Below are positions 28,693 to 51,527 of a DNA stretch of 64,000 bases, piece by piece. The position numbers were made by a program, and so were the translations under genes. Origin of the DNA: Herbiconiux moechotypicola (GTDB lineage Bacteria > Actinomycetota > Actinomycetes > Actinomycetales > Microbacteriaceae); the NCBI RefSeq assembly GCF_024979255.1, contig NZ_JANLCN010000010.1, positions 62,001 through 126,000 on the forward strand. Reading direction: 5' to 3'. The number at the start of each line of letters is the position of its first letter. Positions within the stretch are counted from its first letter, which is position 1. Under the pieces are notes generated by a model that saw only the letters and a list, made by a program, of their open reading frames with translations, searched no databases and was not told the DNA's origin.

Positions 28693-30000
28693 TCAAGCAC
28701 CCGCCTGGTCAGTACCAGCCTTGGGCTCTGCATCCGCAGCTTCTGCGGCCTTCTGCGTGGCCTGCGCCGCCGCGACCGCGGCCCGGCCCGACGGCAGCAG
28801 GAGCGCCACCACGATCACGATCACCGTGGCGACACCACCGGCGATGAGCAGCGCCTGCACGCTGATGACGTCGGCCAGCGGGCCGAACACCGACATGCCG
28901 ATGGGGGTGGCGAGCGCCATCACGATGCCCACGTAGCTGAACACCCGGCCGTGCTTGTCGGGGTCGACGGTCTCCTGCACCAGGGTCATGAACGGGGCGG
29001 AGAACAGCGGCACCCCGAGACCGAACAGGAACATGAAGGCGTAGAACACCCAGAGGTTCGGGCTCAGGCCGAGCGCGATGGTGAACACGGCGAAGGCGAA
29101 GCTCGACACGATGATGAGGCCGATGCGGCTCACCTTCGCCAGCACGGTCGAGACCAGCACACCACCGAGCAACATGCCGATGCTGAAGGCGATCTCGAGC
29201 ACCGTGACCATCCACACCTCGGTGCCGAAGGTGCGGGCGATGAGGAGCGGGGTGACGAACGACGGTGCCACGGTGAGCAGGAAGATGATGGCGAACACCA
29301 CCAGCAGCCAGCGCACGATGCGGTGGTGCCAGATGTAGTGCATGCCCTCCACGAGGTCTTCGCGGTAGGTCGACGCCTTCTCGGCCACCCGGTCGAGCGT
29401 GGGCACCACCACCATCGCGAGCAGCAGGATGCCGATGACAGCCGTGACCACGTCGATGAAGAACGCCGGCACGATGCCGAAGATGCCGAACACGGCACCG
29501 GCCGCGGCGGGGGCGAGCAGGGCCATGGCCGACTGGATGGTCTGGAAGAAGCCGTTCACACGCATGAGCTGGTCGGGCGGGGCGATCTGCGGGATCATCG
29601 CCTGCACGGCGGGCGTCTGCACCCCGGCGCCGACGGAGCGCACGGCGACGGCGAGCAGGATGATCCACAGATCGGTGATGCCGTTCAGCATGAGCAGGGC
29701 GAGCACGAGCGTGACGGCGGCGATGGTGCCGTCGGCGAGCATGACGAGCACCTTGCGGTTCATGCGGTCGGCGAGCACGCCACCGAAGATCGACACCACG
29801 CCCTGAGGCAGGAAGGCCGCGACGGCGTAGAGGGCGACCGCGAGGCCAGACTGGGTCTCGAAGGTCACCCACCACATCACCACGTACTGCACGATCATCG
29901 ACCCGAACAGCGAGACCGTCTGGCCGCTGAGGAACAGGGTGACATTGCGCTTCCAGTGCGCGGGGATCTCCGGGGTGGCGGGTGCCGTCTCATCCGTCAT
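28693..30000 (-). CDS. MFS transporter, DHA3/TetV-like (12 TM)
   Basis: A 435-residue permease with about 12 spans. It starts with an N-terminal WKRNVTLFLSGQTVSLFGSMI-like segment, and motif A is FGGVLADRMNRKV. This group is usually linked to macrolide or tetracycline efflux, but it also includes sugar-related exporters. The open frame extends upstream to 30231, but ATG 30000 fits the family N-terminus. It is divergent from the metallo-hydrolase gene, and both start around the GAAATTTC element at 30.05 kb, so it may belong to the catabolic regulon. Confidence 0.85.
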   Translation of the reverse strand: MTDETAPATPEIPAHWKRNVTLFLSGQTVSLFGSMIVQYVVMWWVTFETQSGLAVALYAVAAFLPQGVVSIFGGVLADRMNRKVLVMLADGTIAAVTLVLALLMLNGITDLWIILLAVAVRSVGAGVQTPAVQAMIPQIAPPDQLMRVNGFFQTIQSAMALLAPAAAGAVFGIFGIVPAFFIDVVTAVIGILLLAMVVVPTLDRVAEKASTYREDLVEGMHYIWHHRIVRWLLVVFAIIFLLTVAPSFVTPLLIARTFGTEVWMVTVLEIAFSIGMLLGGVLVSTVLAKVSRIGLIIVSSFAFAVFTIALGLSPNLWVFYAFMFLFGLGVPLFSAPFMTLVQETVDPDKHGRVFSYVGIVMALATPIGMSVFGPLADVISVQALLIAGGVATVIVIVVALLLPSGRAAVAAAQATQKAAEAADAEPKAGTDQAGA

Positions 30001-30042
30001 GTGAACAGCGTATACATGACCACCGACATCGAGCCCTCCGGG

Positions 30043-30075
30043 TTTCTTGCAAGAAATTTCGATACTGGCTAGTCT
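30043..30075 (+). promoter_or_regulatory. Promoter with putative RpiR operator, site A
   Basis: TTGCAA (30047-30052), a 17-nt spacer and TAGTCT (30070-30075) form a promoter for the metallo-hydrolase operon. GAAATTTC (30053-30060) lies directly after the -35 box. A 14-bp perfect palindrome, TTTCTTGCAAGAAA (30043-30056), overlaps it, and a half copy (AAATTCTTGCGAAG) follows at 30081. The same octamer recurs at sites B and D. Confidence 0.5.
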
Positions 30076-30103
30076 GAGAGAAATTCTTGCGAAGGAGCCG
30101 CCG

Positions 30104-30976
30104 ATGTCCCCCGCCGAAACCGTGATCGACCCCGCGTTCCCCGCCCCGGAGGGGTGGGAGGACGAGGTCGTCGCCTGGTGGCTCGGCCAGGCCGGCTTCG
30201 CGCTCCGCCACCGCGACGAGCTCGTGTTCATCGACCCCTACCTCAGCGACGTGCTCGCCCTGAAGTACCGCGGCCGCGTCTTCCCCCACACTCGCCTCCA
30301 CCCCACGCCCGTCAACCCCTCCGACGTCACCGGGCTGTCCCTGGTGCTCTGCACCCACGGACACACCGACCACATGGACCTCGGCTCCATCCCCTACCTG
30401 CAGACCTCGAGCGACCCGCTCTTCATCGTGCCCCGCTCCGAAGCCGTCAAAGCCGTCTCCCGCGGCATTCCGCCCGCACGGCTGCTCGGGCTCGACGCGG
30501 GCGAGCACGCCGGCATCGGCGCCGTCGCCGTCACCGCGGTGCCCGCCGCCCACGAGCACCTCGAGCTCGACGCCCACGGTCAGAACCTCTTCCTCGGCTA
30601 CGTGATCGAGCTCGGCGGCCTGCGCATCTACCACTCCGGCGACTGCGCACCCTACGAAGGGCAGGAGCAGATCATCCGCGAGCTCGATGTCGACATCGCC
30701 CTGCTGCCGGTGAACGGACGGGATGCGCACCGCGTCGACCACGGCGTGCCCGGCAACTTCTCGGTCGACGAGGCGGTCGCACTGTGCCGCGCCGCGCGCA
30801 TCCCGGCCCTCGTGCCGCACCACTGGGGGCTGTTCGCCTTCAACACCGCCAACCCCGACGAGCTGCGGGCCGCGCTCGAGGAGGTCGACGACGTGGCCTG
30901 GCGGCTGCCCGTGCTGGGCGAGCCGTTCCGTCTGAGTGGCGTCGGCGCGTCTCGCATCGCGGGGGCCCGCGCGTGA
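30104..30976 (+). CDS. MBL-fold metallo-hydrolase, UlaG/lactonase-like
   Basis: A 290-residue metallo-beta-lactamase-fold hydrolase. The metal motif is THGHTDHMD (His85, His87, Asp89, His90). Further ligands are probably in AAHEHLELDAHG and YHSGDCAPYEG, and HHWGLF resembles the C-terminal region of L-ascorbate-6-phosphate lactonase (UlaG). A sugar-lactone or cyclic-ketone ring-opening role would fit the neighbouring dehydrogenases, but the substrate is unknown. GAAGGAG precedes ATG 30104. The stop overlaps the GTG of the AroE-fold gene by 4 nt, so the two are translationally coupled. Confidence 0.85.
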   Translation: MSPAETVIDPAFPAPEGWEDEVVAWWLGQAGFALRHRDELVFIDPYLSDVLALKYRGRVFPHTRLHPTPVNPSDVTGLSLVLCTHGHTDHMDLGSIPYLQTSSDPLFIVPRSEAVKAVSRGIPPARLLGLDAGEHAGIGAVAVTAVPAAHEHLELDAHGQNLFLGYVIELGGLRIYHSGDCAPYEGQEQIIRELDVDIALLPVNGRDAHRVDHGVPGNFSVDEAVALCRAARIPALVPHHWGLFAFNTANPDELRAALEEVDDVAWRLPVLGEPFRLSGVGASRIAGARA

Positions 30977-31893
30977 CGAGCACGTTCTGGTTCTTCGGGG
31001 TCACCACCGGCCAGTCGGCCATGCAGCGCATCTATCCGCTCTGGATGGAGCACCTCGGCATCGACTCCGAGCTGCGCGGGATCGACTTCGCGCTCGACGC
31101 GCCCGCCGAGGGTTACCGGGCGGCCGTGGAGCGCATCCGCGACGACCCCGCCTCGATCGGGGCGCTCATCACCACTCACAAGCTCGCCGTGCTGAACGCC
31201 GCCCGTGACCTCTTCGACGAGCTCGACGACTCGGCACGGCTGCTGCACGAGGTGAGCTGCATCGCGAAGCGGGGCGACCGGATGCTCGGAGCGGCGCTCG
31301 ACGATCGCACGAGCTCCCTCGCCCTGCGTGGTCTCGCGGGCGAGGGGTGGTGGGATGCGGGTGGCGAGCTGCTGCTGCTCGGGGCCGGCGGGGCGTCGGT
31401 CGCGACGGTGCTCGGCGTGCACCGGGCGGCGGAGGCCGGGCTCGACGCGCCCGCGCGCATCCGGGTGACCGCCCGTTCGCCGCACCGACTCTCGGAGCTC
31501 ACCGCGCTCGCGGACTCGGTGGGGTTGCGCATCCCGCTCGACCCCGTGGTGGCCGCCGACGCCGCCGCGACGGATGCGGTGGTCGCGACGCTGCCGCCGC
31601 ACTCGATCGTGGTGAACGCGACCGGTATGGGCAAGGACAGGCCCGGGTCGCCGACCTCGGACGGGGTGCGCTACCCCGATGATTCGATCGCGTGGGACAT
31701 GAACTACCGGGGCGAGCGGCTCTTCCTCGAGCAGGCGCGGGCGCAGGGCGCCTCCGCTCGCACACGGGTGGTCGACGGATGGGACTACTTCGTGCACTCC
31801 TGGACCCACGTGGTGGCCGTGGTGCACCAGGTCGACATCTCCGGGCCGGTGTTCGACGAGATGTCGGCGATCGCCCGCTCCGCGATGGCCTGA
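30973..31893 (+). CDS. Shikimate dehydrogenase (AroE)-fold NAD(P)-dependent dehydrogenase, paralogue A
   Basis: 306 residues. The N-terminal substrate domain keeps an AroE-like catalytic lysine (ITTHKL, Lys70) and Asp (GAALDDRTS, Asp110/111). The Rossmann domain has LLLGAGGASV, and VVNATGMGKDRPGSP corresponds to the NATPxGM region of AroE. The shikimate-binding HSxSP motif is replaced by VTTGQSAM, so the substrate is probably a different cyclic or linear polyol. The only related gene in the window is paralogue B in the operon 13 kb away. Start GTG 30973 overlaps the upstream stop. Confidence 0.85.
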   Translation: MTSTFWFFGVTTGQSAMQRIYPLWMEHLGIDSELRGIDFALDAPAEGYRAAVERIRDDPASIGALITTHKLAVLNAARDLFDELDDSARLLHEVSCIAKRGDRMLGAALDDRTSSLALRGLAGEGWWDAGGELLLLGAGGASVATVLGVHRAAEAGLDAPARIRVTARSPHRLSELTALADSVGLRIPLDPVVAADAAATDAVVATLPPHSIVVNATGMGKDRPGSPTSDGVRYPDDSIAWDMNYRGERLFLEQARAQGASARTRVVDGWDYFVHSWTHVVAVVHQVDISGPVFDEMSAIARSAMA

Positions 31894-31967: not shown

Positions 31968-32729
31968 ATGCCCACACCCGCAAGCCCCGCCGACCCCCGC
32001 GTCGCGATCGTCACCGGAGCCGCGTCGGGGGTGGGCCTGGCCACGGTGCGAGGATTGCTCGCTGAAAGTGCCCACGTGGTGGCGGTCGACGTCGATCCGT
32101 CCGCGGCGGAGCTCTTCGCCGCCGATCCGGGCGTGCTGACGGTGATCGGCGACGTGGCCGACCCCGCTACCGCCGAACGCGCGGTGACCGCGGCGCTCGA
32201 CGCCTTCGGGCGCGTCGACGTGCTCGTGAACAACGCCGCCCGCTTTCTGCTCAAGCCGCTCGCCGAGACGACCGTGACCGAGTGGGATGCGGTGCTCCGC
32301 ACGAACGTGCGCGGCGTATTCCTGTTCTCGCGGGCGGTGCTGCCCACGATGACGGCGCAGGGCGGAGGCTCGATCGTGAACGTCACCTCCATCTCGGGCC
32401 TCGTGGGGCTCGCGAACCAGGCGGTCTACGGCGCGAGCAAGGGAGCGATCGTCACGCTCACGAAGGCGCTCGCGGTCGAGGTGGCCGCATCGGGCGTGCG
32501 GGTGAACGCGGTCGCGCCGGGCACCGTCGACACCCCGTTCGTGCGGGAGCCGCTCGCCGCCCTGCCCGACCCGGAGGCCACCCTCCGCACGATCGCGGCG
32601 ACGCATCCGCTCGGCCGCATCGCCCGGCCCTCCGAGATCGCCGACGCCGTGCTCTACCTCGCCTCCCCCGCCGCCTCCTTCATCACCGGCACCGTCCTCC
32701 CCGTCGACGGCGGCTACACCGCCCAGTGA
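31968..32729 (+). CDS. SDR family oxidoreductase (classical)
   Basis: 253 residues. Cofactor motif TGAASGVG, NNAA strand, catalytic Ser/Tyr/Lys in NVTSIS...YGASKGA, and the C-terminal FITGTVLPVDGGYTA of the 3-ketoacyl-reductase-like classical group. The cofactor is probably NAD(H), because a VDVD stretch follows the Gly motif. It should oxidise or reduce a hydroxyl of the sugar or polyol handled by this locus. GAGGAG is 7 nt before ATG 31968. It is the third gene of the unit led by the metallo-hydrolase. Confidence 0.9.
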   Translation: MPTPASPADPRVAIVTGAASGVGLATVRGLLAESAHVVAVDVDPSAAELFAADPGVLTVIGDVADPATAERAVTAALDAFGRVDVLVNNAARFLLKPLAETTVTEWDAVLRTNVRGVFLFSRAVLPTMTAQGGGSIVNVTSISGLVGLANQAVYGASKGAIVTLTKALAVEVAASGVRVNAVAPGTVDTPFVREPLAALPDPEATLRTIAATHPLGRIARPSEIADAVLYLASPAASFITGTVLPVDGGYTAQ

Positions 32730-32740
32730 CCCGCCCCCCG

Positions 32741-33678: not shown

Positions 33679-34245
33679 TCAGACGCCGCCGTCGTAGCGG
33701 GAGGTGTTGTCGTAGTAGCCGCTGGGGAGGTAGAGGCTCGGGATGCCGAGTTCGACGTACATGTCGGTGATCTTGCGGTTGTCGTCGATGGCGAGCACGG
33801 GGTCGACGCCCCAGTCGCGCAGGCGGGCCACTTCGTCGCGCTTGTAGTCGACGGCGTGGCGCGAGGAGTCGTCCTCGTCGGGCGGGCGGCACACCAGCAG
33901 GTCCCAGCGGAGGGCGTGACCGTCGAGCCAGGCGCGCGTGGTGGCGGCGACGTCGTCGATGCGGCCGGTGAGGATGACGACGCGCACCTCGTCGCGCACC
34001 GTCGAGGCGAGCACACGGCCGGCCTCGATCACGCCGTCGGCCTCGACGCCGCCGTAGAACCCCGCCCAGTCAGGCTCCTCGCGATGCAGGAAGTGCTGCC
34101 GGTGCAGTGCATCGGCGATCACCCCGTCGAGGTCGAAGATGACCGCGGGTCCAGGCAGCAGGGTGCCGTCGGCGGGATGCCAGTGCCCGGGGAGGGCGTC
34201 GGCGGCCGCCGCGCGCACGGCGGCCGAGGTGGCGTCGGCGATCAT
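33679..34245 (-). CDS. HAD-superfamily phosphatase-like protein
   Basis: 188 residues with the four HAD motifs: FDLDGVIAD (nucleophile Asp), VILTGRIDD (motif II Thr), a Lys in VDYKRDEV, and VLAIDDNRK (motif IV acidic pair). The spacing and the DWAGFYGG cap region resemble the phosphatase domain of polynucleotide kinase. In context it could remove phosphate from a pathway intermediate. Its ATG overlaps the transketolase C-subunit stop by 4 nt, so it is the last gene of a three-gene coupled operon. Confidence 0.8.
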   Translation of the reverse strand: MIADATSAAVRAAAADALPGHWHPADGTLLPGPAVIFDLDGVIADALHRQHFLHREEPDWAGFYGGVEADGVIEAGRVLASTVRDEVRVVILTGRIDDVAATTRAWLDGHALRWDLLVCRPPDEDDSSRHAVDYKRDEVARLRDWGVDPVLAIDDNRKITDMYVELGIPSLYLPSGYYDNTSRYDGGV

Positions 34246-35258
34246 GCGGAGCGCACCTCCGCCCCGGCATCGGCCCCGGCGAGCGCCTCGCGCACGACCT
34301 CGGCGATGCCCGGCGCATCCAGCCGGTAGTGCCGGTACAGGTGCGTGGGCGGCGCGATGAGGCTGTACTCGTCGTGGATTCCGTGCCGCACCAGGCGGGC
34401 GCGCGACGGCGACTCCGCCATCACCTCCGCCACGGCGGCGCCGAGCCCGCCCAGCACGTTGTGCTCCTCAATGGTCACCACCAGGGCGCTGCGGGCCGAG
34501 GCGGCACGCACCAGTTCCGCATCCAGCGGCTTGATCGTCGGCATGTCGATCACCCCGACCGAGAGCCCCTCCGCGCGGAGCGCCTCGGCCGCGGCGAGCG
34601 ACGGATGAACCTGGGTGCCGCAGGCGATGAGGGTCACGTCGGTGCCGGTGGAGTGCTCGACCCCCCGCCCGAACACGAACTCCACGTCGTCGGCGTAGAC
34701 CTGCGGGTCGCGCCCGCGGCTGGTGCGGAAGTAGATGGGCTCCGGCCAGCTGGCTGATGCGCGGATCGCCGCCCGCAACTGCGGACCGTCGGCGGGCGAC
34801 ACCACGGTGAGCCCCGCGATCGCCCGCATCGTGGAGATGTCCTCCGTGGCGTGGTGGCTCGTGCCGTAGAACCCGAGCGCGATGCCGGTGTGATGGCCGA
34901 TCAGCCGCACCGGGAGCTTGGTGTACGCCACGTCCATCCGTATCTGCTCGCAGCACAGCAGCGCGAGGAACGAGGCGAAGGTGGCCACGAACGGCGTGTG
35001 CCCCGTGGTGGCGAGGCCCGCCGCGGCCGAGACCATGTTCTGCTCGGAGATGCCGAACTGCAGAAAGCGGTCGGGATGCGCGCGGGCGAACTTCACGAGG
35101 CCGTTGGAGTACTGCAGGTCGGCGGTGCCCGCCACCACGGGAACTCCGGCCTCGACGAGATCGAGCAGGCCGTCGGAGAGGTGGTCGAGCCCGGGGTTCT
35201 GGGCGTTGAGGCCGCGGTACTGCCACGACCCCTCGGAGAGGGTGGCGGGGGCACTCAT
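34242..35258 (-). CDS. Transketolase, C-terminal (pyrimidine-binding) subunit
   Basis: A 338-residue subunit with the transketolase pyrimidine domain (FLQFGISEQNMVSAAAGLA, holding the catalytic Glu that activates thiamine diphosphate) and the C-terminal domain (PTIKPLDAELV ... EEHNVLGGLG). Its partner is the N-terminal subunit encoded just upstream; ATG and stop overlap by 4 nt. Two-subunit transketolases often serve peripheral sugar pathways such as apulose-phosphate or sulfosugar breakdown (family knowledge). The substrate is unknown. Confidence 0.92.
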   Translation of the reverse strand: MSAPATLSEGSWQYRGLNAQNPGLDHLSDGLLDLVEAGVPVVAGTADLQYSNGLVKFARAHPDRFLQFGISEQNMVSAAAGLATTGHTPFVATFASFLALLCCEQIRMDVAYTKLPVRLIGHHTGIALGFYGTSHHATEDISTMRAIAGLTVVSPADGPQLRAAIRASASWPEPIYFRTSRGRDPQVYADDVEFVFGRGVEHSTGTDVTLIACGTQVHPSLAAAEALRAEGLSVGVIDMPTIKPLDAELVRAASARSALVVTIEEHNVLGGLGAAVAEVMAESPSRARLVRHGIHDEYSLIAPPTHLYRHYRLDAPGIAEVVREALAGADAGAEVRSA

Positions 35259-36190
35259 GCGCGCACCCCCGCTCCGGTCGAGGCTGCCGCCGAGCGGATC
35301 TCGGCGACCGCCGCCTCCGCATCCGCCGGCACCAGGTAGCCGAGATGCCACCCGGGCTCGGTCTCCATGTAGCCGACCCCCTTGCCCTTCTTCGTGTGCG
35401 CGATCACGCAGCTCGGCGCGGCCTCGGCGGGCCGGTCGGCGAGCCCCAGCAGCAGGTCGCGGACCGCGACCGCGTCGTGCCCGTCGACCTCGTGCACCTC
35501 CCACCCGAAGGCGCGCCACTTGTCGGCGAGGGGCTCGATGCCCACCACCTCGTCGACCTCGCCGTCGAGCTGGAACCCGTTGCGGTCGACGATCGCGACG
35601 AGCTTGCCGAGACGGTGGTGGGCGCCCGCGAGCGCCGCCTCCCACACCTGCCCCTCCTGCATCTCGCCGTCGCCCAGCATCACGAACACCGAGAAGCCGT
35701 CGCCGTTCATCCGGCCCCCGAGCGCCATGCCGAGACCGTTCGAGAGCGCGTGCCCGATGGAGCCCGAGCTGAAGTCGATGCCGGGCACCTTCGTCATGTC
35801 GGGGTGGTCGCCGAGCGGGCTGCCGAGCCGCGTGTAGCCGTTCAGCACCTCGGCGGGGAAGAACCCGAGGTCGGAGAGCACGGGGAAGAGGCCCACGGCG
35901 GCGTGGCCCTTGCCCATGAGGAAGCGGTCTCGGCCCTGCCACTGCGGGTTCGCGGGGTCGGTGCGCATCACGCCGTAGTAGAGCGCGGCGAAGATCTCGG
36001 CGGCCGAGAACACGGAACTGTAATGGCCGACCTTGGCCAGCTCGATGAGCCGGATGGCCTCGGTGCGCACGAACTCGGCGCGGTCGGCGAGCAGCGCGGC
36101 GTCGGCGACGGGGCGGGCAGGCGCGAGCGCCGCCGAGGGGTGTTTCGCGGGCGGGTGGGGGGCGGGCGGATGCGTCGTTGCAGAGGGCAT
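35255..36190 (-). CDS. Transketolase, N-terminal (thiamine-diphosphate-binding) subunit
   Basis: A 311-residue subunit with VGHYSSVFSAAEIFAALY, the substrate/ThDP His residues in GKGHAAVGLF and GDHPDM, and the ThDP motif GDGEMQEGQVWEAALAG followed by DRNGFQLDG. An Ala/Pro/His-rich N-terminal tail of about 30 residues precedes the domain; a later start is possible but none is supported by a ribosome binding site. With the C-terminal subunit it forms a full two-chain transketolase. A GAAATTTC element lies 16 nt upstream of ATG 36190. Confidence 0.92.
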   Translation of the reverse strand: MPSATTHPPAPHPPAKHPSAALAPARPVADAALLADRAEFVRTEAIRLIELAKVGHYSSVFSAAEIFAALYYGVMRTDPANPQWQGRDRFLMGKGHAAVGLFPVLSDLGFFPAEVLNGYTRLGSPLGDHPDMTKVPGIDFSSGSIGHALSNGLGMALGGRMNGDGFSVFVMLGDGEMQEGQVWEAALAGAHHRLGKLVAIVDRNGFQLDGEVDEVVGIEPLADKWRAFGWEVHEVDGHDAVAVRDLLLGLADRPAEAAPSCVIAHTKKGKGVGYMETEPGWHLGYLVPADAEAAVAEIRSAAASTGAGVRA

Positions 36191-43817: not shown

Positions 43818-44789
43818 TCAGCGACGGGCGATCTCGGAGAGCTGGTCGAAGCCGGGGCCCGAGGTGGGGATGCGCAGGTCGAACACCTGGTCCATCACGC
43901 GCGTCCAGCCGTGGAGGAAGTAGAACCAGCCGTCGACCGGATGCACGCCGCGGCCGGCCTGACGCCTCGCCTGATCGAGGAAGACCAGGTCGCCGCGGTA
44001 GTTGAAGTCCCAGGCGACGGCGCCGTCGGGGAACCCGACCGCATCCGTGAGCGGTGACCCCGGACGGTCTTTGCCGAGGCCGGTGGCGTTCACCACGATC
44101 GCGCCGGGGGCGAGACCGGAGAGCACCTCGTCGTTCTGCTCGGGGGAGGGCGCGACGACGTAGTCGATCGGGATGCGGAAGCCGAGCCGATCGTGGAAGG
44201 CGCGCATCTCGTCGAGGCGGCCCGGGCGGCGGTTGGTCACGACGATCCGCGTGGGCACGGGCTGCCCCGCCTGCTGCAGGCGGTGCAGGTGCAGGGTGAG
44301 CGCGAGCGACGAGCCGCCGGCACCGAGGAGGAGGAGCTCGCGAGCGGCGGCCCCGGCACCCTCGCGTGCGCCTGTGTCCTCCCCGACGATCGCGTCGTAG
44401 GCGAGCCCGGCCGTCACGTCGTCCATCGCGTGCCCGAGCAGCCGGTCTCCCCGCTTCGAGATGCTGCTGATCTCGTCGAGCTGCGCGGCCGACTCCCCCA
44501 CCTCGTCGAAGAGGTCGCGGCTGGCCTTGTAGAGGTTGAGCTTGTGCGTGGTCACGAGCGCGCCGAGCGCGTTCGGATCGTCGCGCAGGTACTCCACCAC
44601 GCGCCGGTACACCTCGGGCGGAGCGTCGAGCGGAATGTCGATGCCGGCGATCCGCGGCGGCAGCCCCAGGTGCTCCGCCCAGCGCGGGAACACCGTCATG
44701 ATCGACGACGACCCCGTGGTGACGCCCACGAAGAAGAAGGTGGGCTCGGGCTGGTTCTCGAGGGTCTCGGGGGTGAGCACGGTGGTCAC
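43818..44789 (-). CDS. Shikimate dehydrogenase (AroE)-fold NAD(P)-dependent dehydrogenase, paralogue B
   Basis: A 323-residue paralogue of the gene at 30973, about 57% identical over the first 114 aligned residues by hand count. The AroE lysine (VTTHKL, Lys83) and Asp (HAMDDVTAG, Asp123/124) are kept. The nucleotide motif is LLLGAGGSSLAL, followed by VVNATGLGKDRPGSP. As in paralogue A, the shikimate-binding serines are replaced (GVTTGSSS). It overlaps the adjacent zinc dehydrogenase gene by 4 nt. No aroB, aroC, aroD or aroK gene is nearby, so a role in aromatic synthesis is unlikely. Confidence 0.85.
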   Translation of the reverse strand: MTTVLTPETLENQPEPTFFFVGVTTGSSSIMTVFPRWAEHLGLPPRIAGIDIPLDAPPEVYRRVVEYLRDDPNALGALVTTHKLNLYKASRDLFDEVGESAAQLDEISSISKRGDRLLGHAMDDVTAGLAYDAIVGEDTGAREGAGAAARELLLLGAGGSSLALTLHLHRLQQAGQPVPTRIVVTNRRPGRLDEMRAFHDRLGFRIPIDYVVAPSPEQNDEVLSGLAPGAIVVNATGLGKDRPGSPLTDAVGFPDGAVAWDFNYRGDLVFLDQARRQAGRGVHPVDGWFYFLHGWTRVMDQVFDLRIPTSGPGFDQLSEIARR

Positions 44790-45823
44790 ACGATCACCGA
44801 CTTCATACCGGCGCCGGTGCGCGACTGCTCCATTGCGAGCGCGATGTCGTCGAGGGCGAACCGCCCCGTGATGACGGGGGTGAGGTCGACGCCCCCGCCC
44901 GCCACGATGTCGATGGCGTCGCCGTAGTCGGTGACGCTCGACCCCGTGGTGCCGGTGAGCGTCTGCTCGCGGTAGTGCAGCGAGTTCACGTCGATCGGCG
45001 GCCGGGCGCCGTCGCCGAGGCCCGAGAACACGTTGATGCGGCCGAGCCGTCCGGCGAGACCGGTGGCCGCGGAGATGACCTCGGCCTTCGACACGCAGGT
45101 GATGACCACGTCGGCCCCCTCACCTCCGGTCAGCCGGTCGACCTCGGCGGCGAGGTCGGTCTCGGTGACGTTCACGAGCACGTCGGCGCCCATCCGTCCG
45201 GCGATCTCGAGGCGCGGCTGCCGCGAGTTGGCGACGATCACCTGCCGGGCGCCCGCCCTCTTCGCGAGCACCGTGTGGAAGCATCCGATGGGCCCCGCGC
45301 CGATGATGAGCACCGTGTCGCCCTCGCCCACCTCGACCTTGCGCTGCCCGTGCAGGCAGCACGACAGCGGCTCGATCACGGCCGCCACCTCGAAGCCCAC
45401 ACTGTCGGGCAGGTGGAAGAGGTTGCCGCGCTCGAGGGCGATGGCGGGCACGCGGAGGAACTCGGCGAAGCCGCCGTCCATCGTGATGCCGAAGGCCTCG
45501 TAGTCGGGGCAGAGCTGGTTGAGGCCCTTGGCGCAGAGGGCGCAGCGCCCGCAGCCCACGTTGGGGGCCGCGCTCACCCGGTCGCCCGGGGCGAAGCCCT
45601 GCACCTCGGCGCCGGCCTCCACCACCTCGCCGCTCCACTCGTGCCCGAGCACGCGTGGAGTGCCGGCCGGGATGCGGAAGTGGCCGTGCTTCACGATGCG
45701 CAGGTCGGTGCCGCAGATGCTCGCGGCGCGCACGCGCACGAGCACGTCGCCCGGCCCGATGGCCGGCACCGGCACTTCGGCGACCTCGATCACGCCGGGC
45801 TCGCGGAAGACGGCGGCCTTCAT
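44786..45823 (-). CDS. Zinc-dependent dehydrogenase (threonine/sorbitol dehydrogenase-like)
   Basis: A 345-residue MDR enzyme. Catalytic zinc ligands are in SICGTDLR, GHEWSGEV and EPLSCCLHG. The structural zinc site is GCGRCALCAKGLNQLC, and the cofactor motif is VLIIGAGPIGCFH. This group oxidises secondary alcohols of polyols. The start ATG 45823 overlaps the stop of the next dehydrogenase gene by 4 nt, and its own stop overlaps paralogue B, so three dehydrogenases are made from a tightly coupled block. Confidence 0.92.
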   Translation of the reverse strand: MKAAVFREPGVIEVAEVPVPAIGPGDVLVRVRAASICGTDLRIVKHGHFRIPAGTPRVLGHEWSGEVVEAGAEVQGFAPGDRVSAAPNVGCGRCALCAKGLNQLCPDYEAFGITMDGGFAEFLRVPAIALERGNLFHLPDSVGFEVAAVIEPLSCCLHGQRKVEVGEGDTVLIIGAGPIGCFHTVLAKRAGARQVIVANSRQPRLEIAGRMGADVLVNVTETDLAAEVDRLTGGEGADVVITCVSKAEVISAATGLAGRLGRINVFSGLGDGARPPIDVNSLHYREQTLTGTTGSSVTDYGDAIDIVAGGGVDLTPVITGRFALDDIALAMEQSRTGAGMKSVIV

Positions 45824-47001
45824 CGGGCCACCTCCGGGGCCAGCGGGGCGGCCGGGGCACCTTGCGAGACCGGCGCGGTGGCGGCGCGCTCGGCGGCGTC
45901 CTCCCCCGCGAGCCGCGCGGAGAGCGACGCGGCGAGCGCCGCATCCCGCTCGGCCAGCGCCTCGGCCGACACCGCGAACACCGTCTTGTTCGACCATCCC
46001 GCTCGATCCGCCAGCCGCGCGAACACCGCGGGCGCGTCGTCGAGCGTCTCGACGTGGCTCACCAGGTCGTCGACCGCGAGCGTGCGGCCGAGGCAGGCCA
46101 CCACCATCTCCCAGTCGTTCGTTACCCGCGGCGCGATCGTCGCGTTCCAGGTGCCGCGCAGCACGAGCTCGCGGCGCAGGATGCGCGACACCGCCTCCTT
46201 GGGCAGGGCCACGTCGGTCGAGAGGTCGCCGAGCAGCACCACCTGGCCGCGGTGAGCGGCGGCGTGCACCGCCTGCAGGAAGGTGACGCCCAGACCGGAG
46301 GCCTCGACGGAGATGTCGACCCCGCGGCCGCCGGTGGCGGCCAGGGCGAGCTCGTCGGAGGGCGCGGCCGAGGCGTCGAGCGTCTCGAAGCCGAGCTGCG
46401 CCGCGACGGTGCGCTTGCGCGCGTCGACGTCGGCCACGAGCACGCGCACCACGCCGAGGATGCGCAGCCACTGCGCCGCGAAGAGCCCGATCGGGCCCGC
46501 GCCGATCACGAGCGCGCTCGCGTTCGGCGGCACCACGGCCTTGCGCACGGCGTGCAGCGCCACCCCCGCGGGCTCCACCATCGCACCCGCGATGAGCGAG
46601 GTGCCCGCCGGCAGCTTCACGAGGTTGCGGGCCGGCACCCGCAGGTACTCTTCCAGCCCGCCGTCACGCCGGGAGCCGAAGTAGTCGTACCGGTCGCCGA
46701 GCGTGTACTCGCCGATCTCGGTCATCGGATCGGTGGGGTCGGGGATGCACGGGAAGATCGCCACCCGGTCGCCCGCCACGAGCATCCCGTCGGCGGAGTC
46801 CTCCTCCACCGTGCCCGACATCTCGTGCCCGAGCACCAGCGGGAAGCCGTAGCCCTTGCCCACGCCGTAGCGCAGCACGTCGGAGCCGCACACGCCCACC
46901 GCGCCCACGCGCACGAGCACCGGGTCGACGCCCACGGGCTCGGGCGGGGGCACGTCGCGCACGACGAGCGAGCGCACCCCCTCCAGCACTGCCGCCTTCA
47001 T
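45820..47001 (-). CDS. Zinc-dependent dehydrogenase (galactitol-1-phosphate 5-dehydrogenase-like)
   Basis: A 393-residue MDR enzyme with zinc ligands in GVCGSDVLR, GHEMSGTV and EPAGVALHA. The four-Cys structural lobe is missing: the region reads FPCIPDPTDPMTEIGEYTLG, with a single Cys. The cofactor motif is ALVIGAGPIGLFAAQW. An Ala-rich C-terminal extension of about 45 residues is unusual. It probably acts on a polyol or polyol phosphate. Its ATG is 2 nt from the SDR stop. Confidence 0.88.
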   Translation of the reverse strand: MKAAVLEGVRSLVVRDVPPPEPVGVDPVLVRVGAVGVCGSDVLRYGVGKGYGFPLVLGHEMSGTVEEDSADGMLVAGDRVAIFPCIPDPTDPMTEIGEYTLGDRYDYFGSRRDGGLEEYLRVPARNLVKLPAGTSLIAGAMVEPAGVALHAVRKAVVPPNASALVIGAGPIGLFAAQWLRILGVVRVLVADVDARKRTVAAQLGFETLDASAAPSDELALAATGGRGVDISVEASGLGVTFLQAVHAAAHRGQVVLLGDLSTDVALPKEAVSRILRRELVLRGTWNATIAPRVTNDWEMVVACLGRTLAVDDLVSHVETLDDAPAVFARLADRAGWSNKTVFAVSAEALAERDAALAASLSARLAGEDAAERAATAPVSQGAPAAPLAPEVAR

Positions 47002-47002
47002 C

Positions 47003-47851
47003 TCAGACCTCCATGCCGTACCGCAGCACCTTGTGCGTGGGGTAGAGCGAGAAGGTGGGGATGGTGACGTCGGGCGTGCGGGTGGCGATGTAGAGCGCGG
47101 CCTCGGCCACGTTCGACACGTCGATGCAGCTGGCCGAGAGGCCCTCCTCGATCTCCTTCTCGTCGAGCCAGCCGTCGGTGTAGGCGGGCAGGTCGCCGTC
47201 GTAGAGGCCGCGGTCGATGATCTCGGTCATGGGGGTGCGCACGTGCGAGGGGTTCAGCACGGTCACGCCGATGTTCTTCTCCATGCCCTCGATGAGGATG
47301 TTCTTCGACAGCCCCAGCATCCCGTGCTTCGACGCCCGGTACGGGCTGTGGCCCGGCCCGGAGGCGACCTTCGTCGACGAGGAGCCCATGTTGATGATGC
47401 GGCCGCCCGTGGACTGCTTCTCCATGACGAGGAAGGCCTCGCGGCAGCAGAGGAAGACGCCGGTGAGGTTGGGGCCGATGGTCTTCGTCCACTCCTCGAG
47501 CGTGACCTCGGTGATGGGCGGCGCCAGCGAGTCGCGGCCCGCACTGTTCACCACGAGGTCGAGCCGGCCGAAGCGGGCGAGGGTCTCGGCGAAGAAGGAG
47601 CGCACCTGGTCTTCGTCGACCACGTCTCCGGTGAGGGCGAGCACCTCGCCGCCGCGGTCGGCACTGCGCTCGGCGATGTCGGCGGCGACCTGGTCGAGGC
47701 GGGCGGTGTCGATGTCGATCATCGCCACCTTGGCGCCGTTGGCGGCATAGATGCGGGCGACGGCCTCGCCGATGCCCGAGGCGGCGCCGGTGATGAGGGC
47801 GACCTTGCCGGCGAGCGCGTCGCCGGGGGTCGGCAGGTAGTCAGGCACCAT
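47003..47851 (-). CDS. SDR family oxidoreductase
   Basis: A 282-residue classical SDR. TGAASGIGEAVA cofactor motif with an acidic MIDID end of strand 2 (NAD preference), NSAGRDS, and catalytic Ser/Tyr/Lys in NMGSSST...YRASKHG. The C-terminus carries an extra segment (TDGWLDEKEIEEGL) and no DGG motif, so it is not a fatty-acid reductase. Its start overlaps the aldolase gene end by 11 nt. Confidence 0.9.
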   Translation of the reverse strand: MVPDYLPTPGDALAGKVALITGAASGIGEAVARIYAANGAKVAMIDIDTARLDQVAADIAERSADRGGEVLALTGDVVDEDQVRSFFAETLARFGRLDLVVNSAGRDSLAPPITEVTLEEWTKTIGPNLTGVFLCCREAFLVMEKQSTGGRIINMGSSSTKVASGPGHSPYRASKHGMLGLSKNILIEGMEKNIGVTVLNPSHVRTPMTEIIDRGLYDGDLPAYTDGWLDEKEIEEGLSASCIDVSNVAEAALYIATRTPDVTIPTFSLYPTHKVLRYGMEV

Positions 47852-48539
47852 GGTGGTGCTCCTTTCGAGCGTTGTCTCTGATGGTTCTCACGGTGTCGGC
47901 GGCCGAGGCCGCCCGCCGCGTGATCTCGGCGAAGTCGCCGGCCTCGAGCAGGTCGCGGGGTGCGATCCAGGTGCCGCCGCAGGCGAGCACGGAGGGGCGG
48001 GATAGGTAGCGCGGCAGATCGTCGACCCTGATGCCGCCGGTGGGCATGAGCCGCGCGTGCGGGTAGGGCCCGGCGAGCGCGTCGATGAGGGCGACACCGC
48101 CGGCCGCCTCGGCGGGGAACAGCTTCACCACGTCGGCGCCGAGCGCGAGGGCGCGGTCGAGCTCGGATGCGGTGGCCGCCCCCGGGATGAAGTCGAGACC
48201 TCGTGAGGCGGCGTGGGCGAGCACCTCGGGGTTGGTGCCGGGGGCGACCCCGAAGTGCGCACCGGCCTCCACCGCGGCGTCGACCGACGCCGTGGTGAGC
48301 AGCGTCCCGGCTCCCACCACGAAGCCGGGACGCGCATCCGTCACCGCCCGGATGGCTGCCGCAGCGGCCGCGGAGCGGAAGGTCACCTCCATGCCAGTGA
48401 GCCCACCGGCCGCCAGCGCGTCGGCCAGGTGGAGGGCCTGGTCTGCCGAGGAGACCACGACCACGGGCACCACGCCGGCCTGGGCGAGGTAGTCGGCGGC
48501 GCGGGTGGCCGCACCGGCCGCCGCGCCGCTCCCGGTCAT
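47841..48539 (-). CDS. KDPG/KHG-type 2-keto-3-deoxy-sugar-acid aldolase
   Basis: A 232-residue class I aldolase of the Eda family. Landmarks are GMEVTFRSAAAAAAI (catalytic Glu), FVVGAGTLL, HFGVAPGTNP, FIPGAAT, the Schiff-base Lys in DVVKLFPAEAAGG, and LMPTGGI. It cleaves a 2-keto-3-deoxy aldonate (phosphate) to pyruvate plus an aldehyde. Its place right after the ABC importer genes suggests that the imported compound is converted to a 2-keto-3-deoxy acid, as in Entner-Doudoroff-like routes. It overlaps both neighbours. Confidence 0.92.
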   Translation of the reverse strand: MTGSGAAAGAATRAADYLAQAGVVPVVVVSSADQALHLADALAAGGLTGMEVTFRSAAAAAAIRAVTDARPGFVVGAGTLLTTASVDAAVEAGAHFGVAPGTNPEVLAHAASRGLDFIPGAATASELDRALALGADVVKLFPAEAAGGVALIDALAGPYPHARLMPTGGIRVDDLPRYLSRPSVLACGGTWIAPRDLLEAGDFAEITRRAASAADTVRTIRDNARKEHHHGA

Positions 48540-49366
48540 GCCGGGCTCCCGAGGCCGAGCTGCTCGGGGGTCTTCGCGCCCACCATCATCGCCACCGCAT
48601 CCGCCATGTCGACCTGGTCGGTCTCCACGAGCGCGATGCGCTTGCCGAGGCGCTGGATGTGGATGCGGTCGGCCACCTCGAAGATCTGCGGCATGTTGTG
48701 GCTGATGAGGATGACGGGGATGCCGCGGGCATTGATGTCCTTGATGAGCTTCACCACCCGACCGGACTCCTTCACGCCGAGGGCGGCGGTGGGCTCGTCG
48801 AGGATGACCACCTTCGAGCCGAAGGCTGCGGCGCGGGCGACCGCCACACCCTGACGCTGGCCGCCGGAGAGCGTCTCCACCGACTGGCCCACGTTCTGGA
48901 GGGTCTGGAGGCCGAGCTCCGACATGGCGCCGAGGGCCTCCTGGCGCATCTTCTTCTTGTCGAGCATCCGGAACACGCTGCCCGCGATGCCCGCGCGGCG
49001 GATCTCGCGGCCGAGGAAGATGTTGCTCGCCACGTCGAGCGCGGGCGACACGGCGAGGCTCTGGAACACCGTCTCGATGCCGAGCCGGCGCGCCTCGACG
49101 GGCGACTTGAGCGTGGTGCGCTCGCCGCCCACGAGCAGCTCGCCCTCGTCGGGCTGCACCGCACCGGAGAGGCACTGGATGAGGGAGGACTTGCCGGCGC
49201 CGTTGTCGCCGATCACCGCGAGCACCTCGCCGCGGCGGATCTCGAAGTCGGTCTCGTCGAGCGCCACCACGTGGCCGTAGCGCTTCACGAGGCCCCGGCC
49301 CTCGAGGATGAGCTCGGGAGCGGGGTCGGGCGTGGTCGATGTCGTCGTCGTTGTCGTGTCGGTCAT
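48536..49366 (-). CDS. Sugar ABC transporter ATP-binding protein (single-domain, FrcA-like)
   Basis: A 276-residue ABC ATPase: Walker A GDNGAGKSS, signature LSGGQRQG, Walker B VVILDEPTAA, H-loop ISHNM. The Thr-rich N-terminal tail (MTDTTTTTTSTTPDP) is unusual. RbsA-type importers usually have tandem domains (about 500 residues); this single-domain form is like the fructose importer FrcA, so it acts as a homodimer with the permease encoded next. Confidence 0.93.
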   Translation of the reverse strand: MTDTTTTTTSTTPDPAPELILEGRGLVKRYGHVVALDETDFEIRRGEVLAVIGDNGAGKSSLIQCLSGAVQPDEGELLVGGERTTLKSPVEARRLGIETVFQSLAVSPALDVASNIFLGREIRRAGIAGSVFRMLDKKKMRQEALGAMSELGLQTLQNVGQSVETLSGGQRQGVAVARAAAFGSKVVILDEPTAALGVKESGRVVKLIKDINARGIPVILISHNMPQIFEVADRIHIQRLGKRIALVETDQVDMADAVAMMVGAKTPEQLGLGSPA

Positions 49367-49367
49367 C

Positions 49368-50411
49368 TCAGCGTCCGATCTTGCGCAGGCGCTGGTCGAC
49401 CGCGACGGCGCCGATGATGAGCAGTCCGATGGTGAACTCCTGCCAGAGGTTGTCGAAGCCCGCGAGCGAGAGGCCGCTCGAGAACACGCCCACGATCACC
49501 GCGCCGAGCAGCGTGCCCATGATGCGGCCGCGGCCGCCGAACAGGCTCGTGCCGCCGATGACGACCGCGGTGATGGAGGCGAGGTTGTAGCTCGCGCCCG
49601 CCGTGGGCGAGATGGAGCCGATGCGGCCGATGAGCAGCCACGCGGTCACGCCGATGATGAGGCCCGCCACCACGTACACCGACATGAGCACCCGGTTCAC
49701 CCGAATGCCCGAGAGCCTCGCCGCCTCGATGTTGTCGCCCACCGCGTAGATGTGCATGCCCCAGGCGGTGCTCCTCAGGATGTACGCGAAGAGCACGAAC
49801 ATGAGGATGGTGAGCACCTGCCCGTAGGTGAAGGTGGTGCCGAGCACCTGGAACCCCGTGCCCAGGAAGGTGAACAGGGCAGGCACGTCGGCGTAGGGCA
49901 CGCTCTCACCGTCGGAGATGAAGATGTTGAGCGCGTAGAAGATGCTGAGCGTGCCGAGGGTGGCGATGAACGGCGGGATGTTGAGCTTGGTCACGATGAG
50001 CCCGTTGATGGCGCCGCAGGCGACGCCGACGAGGATGCCCACCACGAGCGCGAGCTCCACCGGGAGCCCCATCGCCACCGCGACCTTGCCCATCACCACC
50101 TGCGCCAGCAGCATCACGGCCGCCACCGAGAGGTCGATGCCCGCGGTGAGGATGATGAGGGTCTGGGCGATGCCGAGCATCGCGATCACCTGCACCTGCT
50201 GCAGGATGAGCGAGAAGTTCTGCAGGGTGCCGAAGTTGGGCGAGACGATCGAGAACACGATCAGGGCGATCACGAGCACCGCGATGGGGCCGATCAGCGG
50301 GCGCGAGAGCATCCGCCGTTCGATCCACTGCAGGGGCCCCAGGCGCTCCGAGCGGCCGATCTCGACCAGCCCGACCGCCGATGTCGTGTCGGCCGGCTTG
50401 GTGTCGGTCAT
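49368..50411 (-). CDS. Sugar ABC transporter permease (RbsC/FrcC-like)
   Basis: A 347-residue membrane permease of the BPD_transp_2 family with about 8-10 spans. Conserved parts are ILTAGIDLSVAAVMLL, GLIVTKLNIPPFIATLGTL, AVGDNIEAARLSGI and AVVIGGTSLFGGRGRIMGTL. It forms the import channel for the sugar bound by the lipoprotein encoded upstream. It is one base away from the ATPase gene. Confidence 0.93.
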   Translation of the reverse strand: MTDTKPADTTSAVGLVEIGRSERLGPLQWIERRMLSRPLIGPIAVLVIALIVFSIVSPNFGTLQNFSLILQQVQVIAMLGIAQTLIILTAGIDLSVAAVMLLAQVVMGKVAVAMGLPVELALVVGILVGVACGAINGLIVTKLNIPPFIATLGTLSIFYALNIFISDGESVPYADVPALFTFLGTGFQVLGTTFTYGQVLTILMFVLFAYILRSTAWGMHIYAVGDNIEAARLSGIRVNRVLMSVYVVAGLIIGVTAWLLIGRIGSISPTAGASYNLASITAVVIGGTSLFGGRGRIMGTLLGAVIVGVFSSGLSLAGFDNLWQEFTIGLLIIGAVAVDQRLRKIGR

Positions 50412-50416
50412 GTCGG

Positions 50417-51457
50417 TCAGCCCCAGCAGTTCTCGAGGCCCCAGGCGGTGTCTTCGGAGTCGACACCCTCCTGCGGCTGGTCGGTGATGAGGGTGACGCC
50501 GGTGTTGGTGAAGTCGAGGCCCTCGCTGTTGGCGGGCTTCGTGCCGTCGTCGAGGTAGGCCTTCACCGCCTGGAGGGCCTGCTTCGACATCTCGAGCGGG
50601 AACTGCATGCTCGTGGCGGCGATGATGCCCTCCTGCACGTTCGTGACGCCCGGGCATCCGCCGTCGACCGACACGATCGTGATCTGGTCTTCGAGGCCCG
50701 CGGCGGTGACGGCCTGGTAGGCGCCGGCGGCGGTGGGCTCGTTGATCGTGTAGACGAGGTTGATGGTGGGGTCTTTCTGCAGCAGCTTCTCCATGCCGGT
50801 GCGCCCGCCCGCCTCGTTGGCGTCGGTGACCTCGTGGCCGACGAGGCGATCGTCGGTCTCGTCCCACATCTTGGTGGGGTCGGCCGTGTCGATGCCGAAG
50901 CCCTCGAGGAAGCCCTGGTTGCGGGCGACGTCGACCGGGATCTGGTCGGTGGAGAGGTCGAGCGTGGCGATGCGGGCCGGGGTGTCGCCGAGCGCGGCCT
51001 TCGCCCACTCGCCCACGAGCTGGCCGGCGAGCACGTTGTCGGTGGCGAAGGTGCCGTCGATGCCGGAGCCCTCGCCGAGCGGGGAGTCCATGGCGAACAC
51101 CACGACGCCCGCCTGCTGCGCCTTCTGGATGGCCGGGATGATGCCGTCGCCGGCGGGGGTGACGAGGATCGCCTTCGCGCCCTGGGCGGTGAAGTTCTCG
51201 ATCGCCGTGATCTGCGAGTCCACGTCGCTCTGGCCGTCGCCGGAGGCGACCTGGAGGTTGAAGCCCAGTGCCTCGGCTTCCTCCTTCGCGCCCTCGGTCA
51301 TCTTCACGTAGAAGGGGTTGTCCTGGGTCTTGATGACGAGGCCCACGAGGGGCTCGTCCGAGTTCGACGATGAAGCGGTGCTGCAGGCGCTGAGGCCGAG
51401 GAGCGCCATCGCTCCGACGGCCGACGCAGCGACGATGCTGCGGATACGAGCGTGCAT
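50417..51457 (-). CDS. Sugar ABC transporter substrate-binding lipoprotein (RbsB/FrcB-like)
   Basis: A 346-residue exported lipoprotein (signal with LSAC lipobox, Cys about 25) of the periplasmic-binding-protein type 1 fold. LVGLVIKTQDNPFYVKMTEGA is the typical first strand, and IVSVDGGCPGV lies near the hinge. It should bind a pentose, hexose or cyclitol. GAGAGGAC precedes ATG 51457. It is the first gene of the eleven-gene operon and is driven by the site D promoter. Confidence 0.93.
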   Translation of the reverse strand: MHARIRSIVAASAVGAMALLGLSACSTASSSNSDEPLVGLVIKTQDNPFYVKMTEGAKEEAEALGFNLQVASGDGQSDVDSQITAIENFTAQGAKAILVTPAGDGIIPAIQKAQQAGVVVFAMDSPLGEGSGIDGTFATDNVLAGQLVGEWAKAALGDTPARIATLDLSTDQIPVDVARNQGFLEGFGIDTADPTKMWDETDDRLVGHEVTDANEAGGRTGMEKLLQKDPTINLVYTINEPTAAGAYQAVTAAGLEDQITIVSVDGGCPGVTNVQEGIIAATSMQFPLEMSKQALQAVKAYLDDGTKPANSEGLDFTNTGVTLITDQPQEGVDSEDTAWGLENCWG

Positions 51458-51499
51458 GATGTCCTCTCGGGAGGGTAGGAAATGATTACCGATTCCCAC

Positions 51500-51527
51500 A
51501 CCGTACCGGAAATTTCTACGATTTCAA
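51500..51527 (-). promoter_or_regulatory. Main operon promoter with putative RpiR operator, site D
   Basis: On the minus strand TTGAAA (51527-51522), a 16-nt spacer and TACGGT (51505-51500). The spacer contains the palindrome GAAATTTC (51509-51516). Transcription would start about 35 nt before the ABC binding-protein gene. A repressor bound in the spacer would block RNA polymerase. Confidence 0.55.

Follow-up and report, generated by a model that had tools for sequence, protein, structure and literature searches.

An AroE-fold dehydrogenase module in Herbiconiux moechotypicola and its candidate role in the oxidative breakdown of sugar alcohols

Introduction

Which compound, and by which route, would a bacterium degrade with a locus that unites a sugar importer, an aldolase of the 2-keto-3-deoxy-6-phosphogluconate (KDPG) type and two dehydrogenases of the shikimate dehydrogenase (AroE) fold? 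The question is raised by a stretch of 64,000 nt (the window) from the soil bacterium Herbiconiux moechotypicola GCF_024979255.1, contig NZ_JANLCN010000010.1, positions 62,001-126,000, in a genome of 4.28 Mb, 51 contigs and about 70% GC. A sequence-only reading had proposed one catabolic system for a polyol, cyclitol or branched sugar that is oxidised repeatedly, ring-opened by a metallo-hydrolase and split by aldolase and transketolase. Here, we give a probability of about one half to a more specific reading, namely that the genes of the locus form one regulon, probably under its own RpiR-family regulator, for uptake of a sugar alcohol and its oxidative breakdown through an AroE-fold dehydrogenase, a lactonase and the aldolase Eda. 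Genes were called from codon usage and ribosome binding sites, and families were assigned with Pfam (0.001) and NCBIfam (1e-8).

Probable regulon and conserved gene module

The palindrome GAAATTTC was first recognised by reading the intergenic stretches. It occurs exactly at three sites in the window, compared with 0.04 expected from shuffles, and these are the only exact sites in the whole assembly, all at promoters of the locus; the reversed control pattern has no site in the assembly. A one-mismatch copy, GAAACTTC, lies between a zinc dehydrogenase gene and the kinase gene GlpK, and at this position the Agromyces locus L008 carries an exact copy. Three genomes of the same genus (G678, G487 and G711) have the exact palindrome at the same three promoters, one exact copy is kept in G421 of the same family, and one is found in Microbacterium L009. 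Upstream of the importer gene in the type A operons described below, two copies are present in Streptomyces L014 and one in Paenarthrobacter L019; L023, L029, L038 and L145 also carry copies, not all at promoters. Since this operator-like site is common to the promoters, the locus looks like one regulon and a single catabolic system, as had been supposed from the sequence, and the place of RpiR in the main operon suggests that this regulator probably binds the palindrome.

A scan with both AroE proteins yielded at least 551 stretches encoding relatives. The best 80 were kept and belong, by their titles, to actinobacteria, rhizobia, other Alphaproteobacteria, Burkholderia relatives, spirochaetes and planctomycetes. 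An AroE match at E 0.001 was found in 30 of 396 genomes of the phylum, about 20 of these weak, and one at 1e-40 in 47 of 398 genomes of the family. Neighbourhoods were counted in 103 loci, 90 of which extend 5 kb or more to either side of AroE. Among these 90 loci a cupin-type phosphoglucose isomerase (cPGI) is near AroE in 86, within 1.2 kb in 79 of the 86, followed by a D-2-hydroxyacid dehydrogenase (2HADH; 73), Eda (59), a UlaG-like hydrolase (54), a PTE-like hydrolase (24), DeoC (9) and an FAD oxidase (8). The cPGI of the window aligns along its length (173.8 bits) with phosphoglucose isomerase 1j3p and keeps the residues GHxH...E...H, which we take to be metal ligands; by motif and fold family it fits an archaeal-type cupin phosphoglucose isomerase.

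Four kinds of loci were distinguished. In type A, the importer, UlaG, Eda, SDR3, two zinc dehydrogenases (ADHs), GlpK, AroE, cPGI, 2HADH and RpiR are grouped closely in Streptomyces, Arthrobacter, Paenarthrobacter and a Mycolicibacterium metagenome-assembled genome (MAG), and with another importer region in Shinella, a Rhizobium MAG and Pacificoceanicola. GlpK, UlaG and the genes of the main operon form one gene run in the first three of these genera and also in the Mycolicibacterium MAG, there with RpiR divergent. The window carries a type A locus split into several units, with a transketolase, a HAD phosphatase, SDR2, a further ADH and a second AroE added; its gene order is kept in G421, G678, G487 and G711. 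Type B, of rhizobia and others, has cPGI-Eda-AroE-2HADH-UlaG-RpiR beside an RbsABC importer and a XylB-like kinase, variously with a GldA-like dehydrogenase, SDRs or a HAD phosphatase. Spirochaete and planctomycete loci combine an IolM-like ADH with a XylB-like kinase, some of them adding IolG-like or Gfo/Idh enzymes, and further actinobacterial loci have a PTE-family protein instead of UlaG. The split transketolase is outside the core module, its genes having been seen next to AroE in none but the closest relatives (TktN in 2 and TktC in 1 of 67 loci).

Three further gene families were seen beside the module. A family of about 440-460 aa is present in 9 of the 90 loci (L077, at 12935-14311, L036, L055, L063, L065, L071, L159, L170 and L174), the L077 copy having no Pfam match at 0.001. 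A deoxyribose-phosphate-aldolase-like gene is found in L027, L045, L048, L053, L056, L058, L082, L085, L144, L156 and L157, several of which also carry a XylB-like kinase belonging to a second cluster. A GH2-type glycoside hydrolase gene at L085:6079-8547 (by Pfam) and L045:5896-8496 (same cluster) hints that a glycoside is the sugar source there.

AroE-fold dehydrogenases and proposed lactone-opening hydrolases

AroE1 and AroE2 share 53% identity, and both lack a Pfam match at 0.001. The AlphaFold2 model of AroE1 (mean pLDDT 91.1) has shikimate dehydrogenases as its top Foldseek matches, with only 13-24% identity among the 50 matches listed. Both proteins are far from the NCBIfam AroE equivalog, AroE2 reaching 43.6 bits of a cut-off of 413 and AroE1 giving no match at 1e-8. 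Judged by the modelled fold, the pair belongs to the shikimate dehydrogenase superfamily, which bears out the earlier assignment. Lys83 and Asp123, presumably the catalytic Lys and Asp, are invariant in 40 of 40 aligned sequences of the family, and a conserved DGWxYF/GWT motif stands where, on our assumption, AroE has its substrate Gln. In the tree AroE2 forms a clade of its own with Agromyces L008 and the sister genomes of the window, outside the AroE1 clade. It keeps all invariant columns of the alignment of 40 sequences, one of which is AroE2 itself, and its gene overlaps that of UlaG by 4 nt; AroE2 and its UlaG partner may take a second stereoisomer. In a plasmid collection 15 records match; eight of them name a feature at this place, in every case as shikimate (5-)dehydrogenase, and the family is therefore probably widely misannotated.

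The function of the family is best approached through its neighbours. Of the 90 loci, 54 have only the UlaG-like hydrolase, 24 only the PTE-like one, none has both and 12 have neither. On an AroE tree of 83 tips the switch between the two was counted twice, which is the safe number, more events being possible. UlaG acts on a phosphorylated lactone, and in the two PTE-like proteins scanned (L010 and L085) the top NCBIfam family was 'phospho-furanose lactonase', at 115 bits under a cut-off of 630. In the Nakamurella locus L010, the nearest relatives of AroE, GlpK, SDR3 and RpiR are of type A and those of cPGI, 2HADH and PTE belong to the PTE lineage; Eda is of mixed affinity, and a different importer is present. 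A cPGI-2HADH-PTE block of the PTE lineage thus operates with the AroE and front end of type A, as would be expected if UlaG and PTE fulfil the same function. Since both hydrolase families include phospho-lactone enzymes and replace each other, their assignment as lactonases is supported; ring opening by the metallo-hydrolase is thus retained in this form, the ring more likely being a phosphorylated lactone.

If the hydrolase opens a lactone, the preceding step should form one. We propose AroE for this step because it is the constant dehydrogenase and because its most constant neighbour, cPGI, makes aldose phosphates. The AroE-fold protein thus seems to be a sugar-phosphate (phospho-aldose) dehydrogenase, which is the strongest new prediction of the analysis.

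Kinase, hydroxyacid dehydrogenase and aldolase

The FGGY kinase of the locus passes the NCBIfam GlpK cut-off (660 against 590 bits). Four relatives own separate housekeeping GlpK copies of about 745 bits, to which the window copy is 48-49% identical. A Phe two residues after GTG, which we take to be the equivalent of E. coli GlpK F270 that packs on glycerol, is found in 4 of 4 housekeeping copies and in 0 of 18 locus kinases. The locus kinase is a paralogue with a changed glycerol pocket, and since the pocket Phe is gone its substrate is likely a larger polyol or ketose. Two GlpK-like stretches, G000:C14:12414-13364 and C50:194212-195162, match only model positions 1-316; in this draft genome a housekeeping glycerol kinase gene may therefore be truncated or interrupted at contig ends.

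In related loci, glycerol-dehydrogenase-like and SDR enzymes accompany XylB-like kinases. Together with the GlpK-like and GatD-like enzymes here, these support a polyol-type substrate, most likely a hexitol. Of the candidates offered earlier the polyol is thereby upheld, the cyclitol becomes a weaker rival and nothing indicates a branched sugar.

The nearest family to the 2HADH is phosphoglycerate dehydrogenase (TIGR01327; alignment with 1wwk), an enzyme of a phosphorylated D-2-hydroxyacid. Seventeen loci have no 2HADH, and six of these contain an FAD-linked oxidase, of a type that presumably acts on 2-hydroxyacids; two loci have both enzymes. For the oxidase, the Pfam families PF01565/PF02913 were checked on three copies (L030, L072 and L075). 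Eda aligns with solved KDPG aldolases, including the motifs K-[FL]-FPAEA and ACGGTW, which we assume to have their KDPG aldolase roles, and by this alignment and a score above the TIGR01182 cut-off it is predicted to be a KDPG-type aldolase. The claims of repeated oxidation and aldolase cleavage are supported.

In the window genome and four locus-bearing relatives (5/5 genomes), searches for Edd gave only IlvD-level scores of 243-251 bits, against a cut-off of 708. Among 14 controls, matches were under the cut-off in 12 and over it in 2 more, and of five further genomes, those of Streptomyces, Arthrobacter and Nakamurella stayed under it. No dehydratase was seen in the locus either, and the most economical interpretation is therefore that a 2-keto-3-hydroxy acid is cleaved. 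A canonical Zwf is encoded elsewhere in the genome (641 bits), and the module therefore does not replace the housekeeping Zwf. A second Zwf-like gene is located at G000:C51:174627-175970 (359 bits, under the cut-off of 400.6).

Proposed pathway

The best reading of the route is one like the Entner-Doudoroff pathway without its dehydratase. The RbsABC-type importer would take up a sugar alcohol, which the SDR, GatD-like and Tdh/IolM-like dehydrogenases and the GlpK-derived kinase would convert to a ketose phosphate. This would be isomerised by cPGI to an aldose phosphate, whose cyclic form the AroE-fold dehydrogenase would oxidise to a phospho-lactone. The UlaG-like hydrolase, or the PTE-family protein of other lineages, would open the latter to a phospho-aldonate, the phosphoglycerate dehydrogenase-like 2HADH would yield the 2-keto-aldonate phosphate, and Eda would split this into two C3 units. 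An ordinary hexitol would in this way give glyceraldehyde-3-phosphate and hydroxypyruvate, the latter a possible ketol donor for the dedicated transketolase.

Several observations weigh against this pathway. The weakest step is the cleavage by Eda of a 2-keto-3-hydroxy acid, which would be chemically unusual for the family, as KDPG aldolases prefer 3-deoxy substrates; 31 of the 90 loci have no Eda nearby, and Edd is over its cut-off in two of the five further genomes (Sinorhizobium and the Mycolicibacterium MAG). We know of no AroE-fold enzyme that makes lactones. The window UlaG-like protein reaches 36.3 bits, against an NCBIfam UlaG cut-off of 306. The exclusion between the hydrolases has a Fisher p of 2.8e-13, which is overstated given only two counted changes on the tree, and support on that tree is weak (0.23 for the 23-locus PTE clade, 0.63 for the L010 branch). 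L010 exchanged a block and not a single gene, and 12 of the 90 loci have neither hydrolase. Direct adjacency to AroE (<300 nt) is limited to 5 of 54 loci for UlaG and 7 of 24 for PTE, 2HADH usually standing between, and 11 of the 90 loci have neither 2HADH nor the FAD-linked oxidase. The closest PDB relatives of the binding protein ABC_B, sugar/ribose-binding proteins at 91 bits, do not fix the importer ligand, and seven type A loci (L010-L013, L015, L024 and L051) have no exact GAAATTTC in the stretch examined.

Alternative readings

One alternative is a cyclitol pathway resembling that of Thermotoga. An inositol-like ring would be oxidised twice, by the IolM-like ADH and by the AroE-fold enzyme acting on a six-membered carbocycle, the UlaG-like protein would open the diketone, and the keto acid, once reduced, would be cleaved by Eda. 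Enzymes related to AroE are known to act on cyclohexane rings, and the ADH at 44786 matches IolM with 229 bits, but the cut-off of 450 is not reached. Related loci add an inositol-2-dehydrogenase-like gene (spirochaete L022, 278 bits under a cut-off of 355), a Gfo/Idh enzyme (Phycisphaerae L065) and an inositol-monophosphatase-family gene (L023 and Shinella L146, the latter also with psicose-epimerase/IolO-like TIM barrels). However, the replacement of UlaG by a PTE-family protein closest to phospho-lactonases, and the almost constant cPGI together with the kinase paralogue, indicate phosphorylated sugars, and we consider the cyclitol reading unlikely.

We regard with similar doubt a use of the module for pentitols, in which pentulose-5-phosphate would be converted to pentose-5-phosphate, pentono-1,4-lactone-5-phosphate, pentonate-5-phosphate and a 2-keto acid, which would be cleaved to a C3 acid and glycolaldehyde phosphate. 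Such a module would be superfluous for common pentitols, which enter the pentose phosphate pathway after two steps; by homology cPGI is a hexose-6-phosphate isomerase, and Eda keeps KDPG-type motifs. What speaks for pentitols is that xylulokinase is the nearest family of the type B kinases (of three scanned, the best scored 337 bits, under the cut-off of 380), and that a lactonase for D-xylono- and L-arabino-1,4-lactone-5-phosphate is named in a reference within PMC5788505.

That the units are independent catabolic genes and neighbours by chance, as the extras SDR1, 36983 and 37906 and the rarity of the transketolase near AroE might suggest, is very improbable and strongly disfavoured, since the palindrome occurs nowhere else in the genome, and on genome comparison the units co-occur, in a kept order in four relatives and in one gene run in Streptomyces, Arthrobacter, Paenarthrobacter and the Mycolicibacterium MAG.

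Gene content of the window

The genes listed in the sequence-only reading, including the eleven-gene operon with satellites, were recovered at the same coordinates (Table 1). The operon runs on the minus strand from 51457 to 41317 in the order ABC_B, ABC_C, ABC_A, Eda, SDR, two zinc ADHs, AroE1, cPGI, 2HADH and RpiR, its ten junctions ranging from an overlap of 11 nt to a gap of 53 nt at most. Beside it are three more groups: UlaG-AroE2, Tkt/HAD with SDR2, and ADH with GlpK.

Table 1. Features of the locus, in window coordinates
Feature	Position	Strand	Basis
Operator-like GAAATTTC	30053..30060		upstream of UlaG-AroE2
UlaG-like metallo-hydrolase, proposed phospho-lactonase	30104..30976	+	Pfam 89 bits; THGHTDH metal motif; alignment with UlaG 2wyl
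AroE-fold dehydrogenase 2 (AroE2), separate paralogue	30973..31893	+	identity to AroE1; own clade in tree
SDR (SDR1)	31968..32729		Pfam/NCBIfam scan
HAD phosphatase	33679..34245	-	PF25109 29.0 bits, cut-off 27.6 (weak match); kept in sister loci
Transketolase C-terminal subunit (TktC)	34242..35258	-	Pfam 127 + 98.6 bits; 89-92% identity in sister loci
Transketolase N-terminal subunit (TktN)	35255..36190	-	Pfam 131 bits; kept in sister loci
Operator-like GAAATTTC	36206..36213		between TktN and SDR2
SDR dehydrogenase (SDR2)	36266..36967	+	Pfam; kept in sister loci
Zinc dehydrogenase, NDMA/mycothiol-ADH-like	38563..39654	-	TIGR03989 271 bits, under cut-off 440; kept in sister loci
One-mismatch copy GAAACTTC	39707..39714		between ADH 38563 and GlpK
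GlpK-family (FGGY) kinase, locus paralogue with changed glycerol pocket	39778..41277	+	NCBIfam GlpK
RpiR-family regulator with SIS domain	41317..42204	-	Pfam HTH_6 + SIS
D-2-hydroxyacid dehydrogenase (2HADH), phosphoglycerate dehydrogenase-like	42197..43159	-	Pfam 149.8 bits; TIGR01327 210 bits, under cut-off 454; aligns with 1wwk
Cupin-type phosphoglucose isomerase (cPGI)	43165..43764	-	Pfam PF06560 106 bits; alignment with 1j3p
AroE-fold dehydrogenase 1 (AroE1), proposed aldose-phosphate dehydrogenase forming a phospho-lactone	43818..44789	-	alignment, model, Foldseek, neighbourhood
Zinc dehydrogenase, Tdh/IolM-like	44786..45823	-	Tdh 233.8, IolM 229 bits; both under cut-off
Zinc dehydrogenase, GatD-like	45820..47001	-	top NCBIfam galactitol-1-P 5-dehydrogenase 179.6 bits, under cut-off 550
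SDR dehydrogenase (SDR3)	47003..47851	-	Pfam; 69-77% identity in more distant type A operons
KDPG/KHG-type aldolase (Eda)	47841..48539	-	Pfam PF01081 208 bits; TIGR01182 223.6 bits, cut-off 156
Importer ATPase, one ABC domain (ABC_A)	48536..49366	-	Pfam ABC_tran 106.6 bits
Importer permease (ABC_C)	49368..50411	-	Pfam BPD_transp_2 131.6 bits
Sugar-binding protein, RbsABC-type importer (ABC_B)	50417..51457	-	Pfam Peripla_BP_4 150.7 bits
Operator-like GAAATTTC	51509..51516		upstream of 11-gene operon

The PfkB kinase reported at 36983-37933 was not confirmed, this open reading frame (ORF) matching neither a Pfam family at 0.001 nor an NCBIfam family at 1e-8; a GAGD stretch in its translation leaves some chance of a divergent PfkB. 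SDR1 and the ORFs 36983 and 37906 were used as queries and were not found at the corresponding places of the sister loci; this concerns one of the three SDRs and the 'PfkB' earlier counted as locus parts. Between SDR1 and HAD an ORF at 32741-33547 (-) has a weak Abi_2 match (20.5 bits, under the cut-off of 25.6); it was not itself a query, and the spacing between AroE2 and HAD in the sister loci is too short for it. SDR1 and the Abi_2-like ORF, between AroE2 and HAD, and the two ORFs 36983 and 37906, between SDR2 and ADH, look like extras. An MFS transporter gene at 28693-30000 (-), divergent from UlaG, has a counterpart near the locus in G678 (L150); none turned up in the remaining sister stretches examined. 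A 469-aa ORF at 26296-27705 (-), with no Pfam match at 0.001, was not chosen by the gene caller and may not be a gene.

Comparison with known systems

The Entner-Doudoroff pathway (PGI, Zwf, Pgl, Edd, Eda) shares with the proposed route, in the same order, hexose phosphate isomerisation, phospho-lactone formation, lactone hydrolysis and KDPG-type cleavage. In the locus, cPGI, the AroE-fold dehydrogenase, the UlaG/PTE hydrolase and 2HADH stand in place of PGI, Zwf, Pgl and Edd, and the window genome has a KDPG-type aldolase with no Edd over the cut-off. The L-ascorbate (Ula) pathway likewise has a UlaG-fold hydrolase that opens a phosphorylated lactone; the locus hydrolase, however, is far under the UlaG equivalog cut-off (36 versus 306 bits), and no other Ula enzyme was among the families found in the Pfam/NCBIfam scans of the window.

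The Thermotoga inositol pathway (IolG, IolM, IolN, IolO) also combines an IolM-type zinc dehydrogenase with a hydrolase and opens the ring after oxidation, whereas the IolM-like enzyme of the locus is under the cut-off (229 versus 450 bits); to our knowledge that pathway has no counterpart of the locus kinase, cPGI or AroE-fold enzyme. The D-altritol and galactitol pathways of Agrobacterium end by epimerisation to fructose-6-phosphate. They resemble the locus in their importer, polyol dehydrogenases and FGGY kinase for rare hexuloses, but for the locus an oxidative module is proposed in place of epimerases. According to PMC12193009, D-tagatose is the product of the D-altritol 5-dehydrogenase of A. 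tumefaciens. With the shikimate dehydrogenase family, including 5-ketofructose reductase, the locus AroE-fold proteins share the fold, the nucleotide-binding motif and the Lys and Asp, while their low identity, their scores far under the AroE cut-offs and the DGWxYF/GWT motif set them apart.

Conclusions

The locus is a new combination of known folds and not a new kind of system, and the enzyme series is widespread but, it appears, undescribed. One may speculate, with low confidence, that the AroE fold gave rise to a sugar-phosphate dehydrogenase that takes the role of glucose-6-phosphate dehydrogenase for rare hexoses. The dehydratase-free pathway would then erase stereochemistry, at C2 by formation of the ketose and the 2-keto acid and at C3/C4 by aldol cleavage, and would so serve many sugar-alcohol front ends, the hydroxypyruvate being salvaged by the two-subunit transketolase in Herbiconiux-type bacteria. 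The neighbourhood makes the function of the AroE-like family a testable assignment, the question being which aldose phosphate is oxidised. If true, the proposed pathway would be new chemistry for the AroE fold, would explain Eda in sugar operons of bacteria without Edd, and would provide a general route for rare hexitols.

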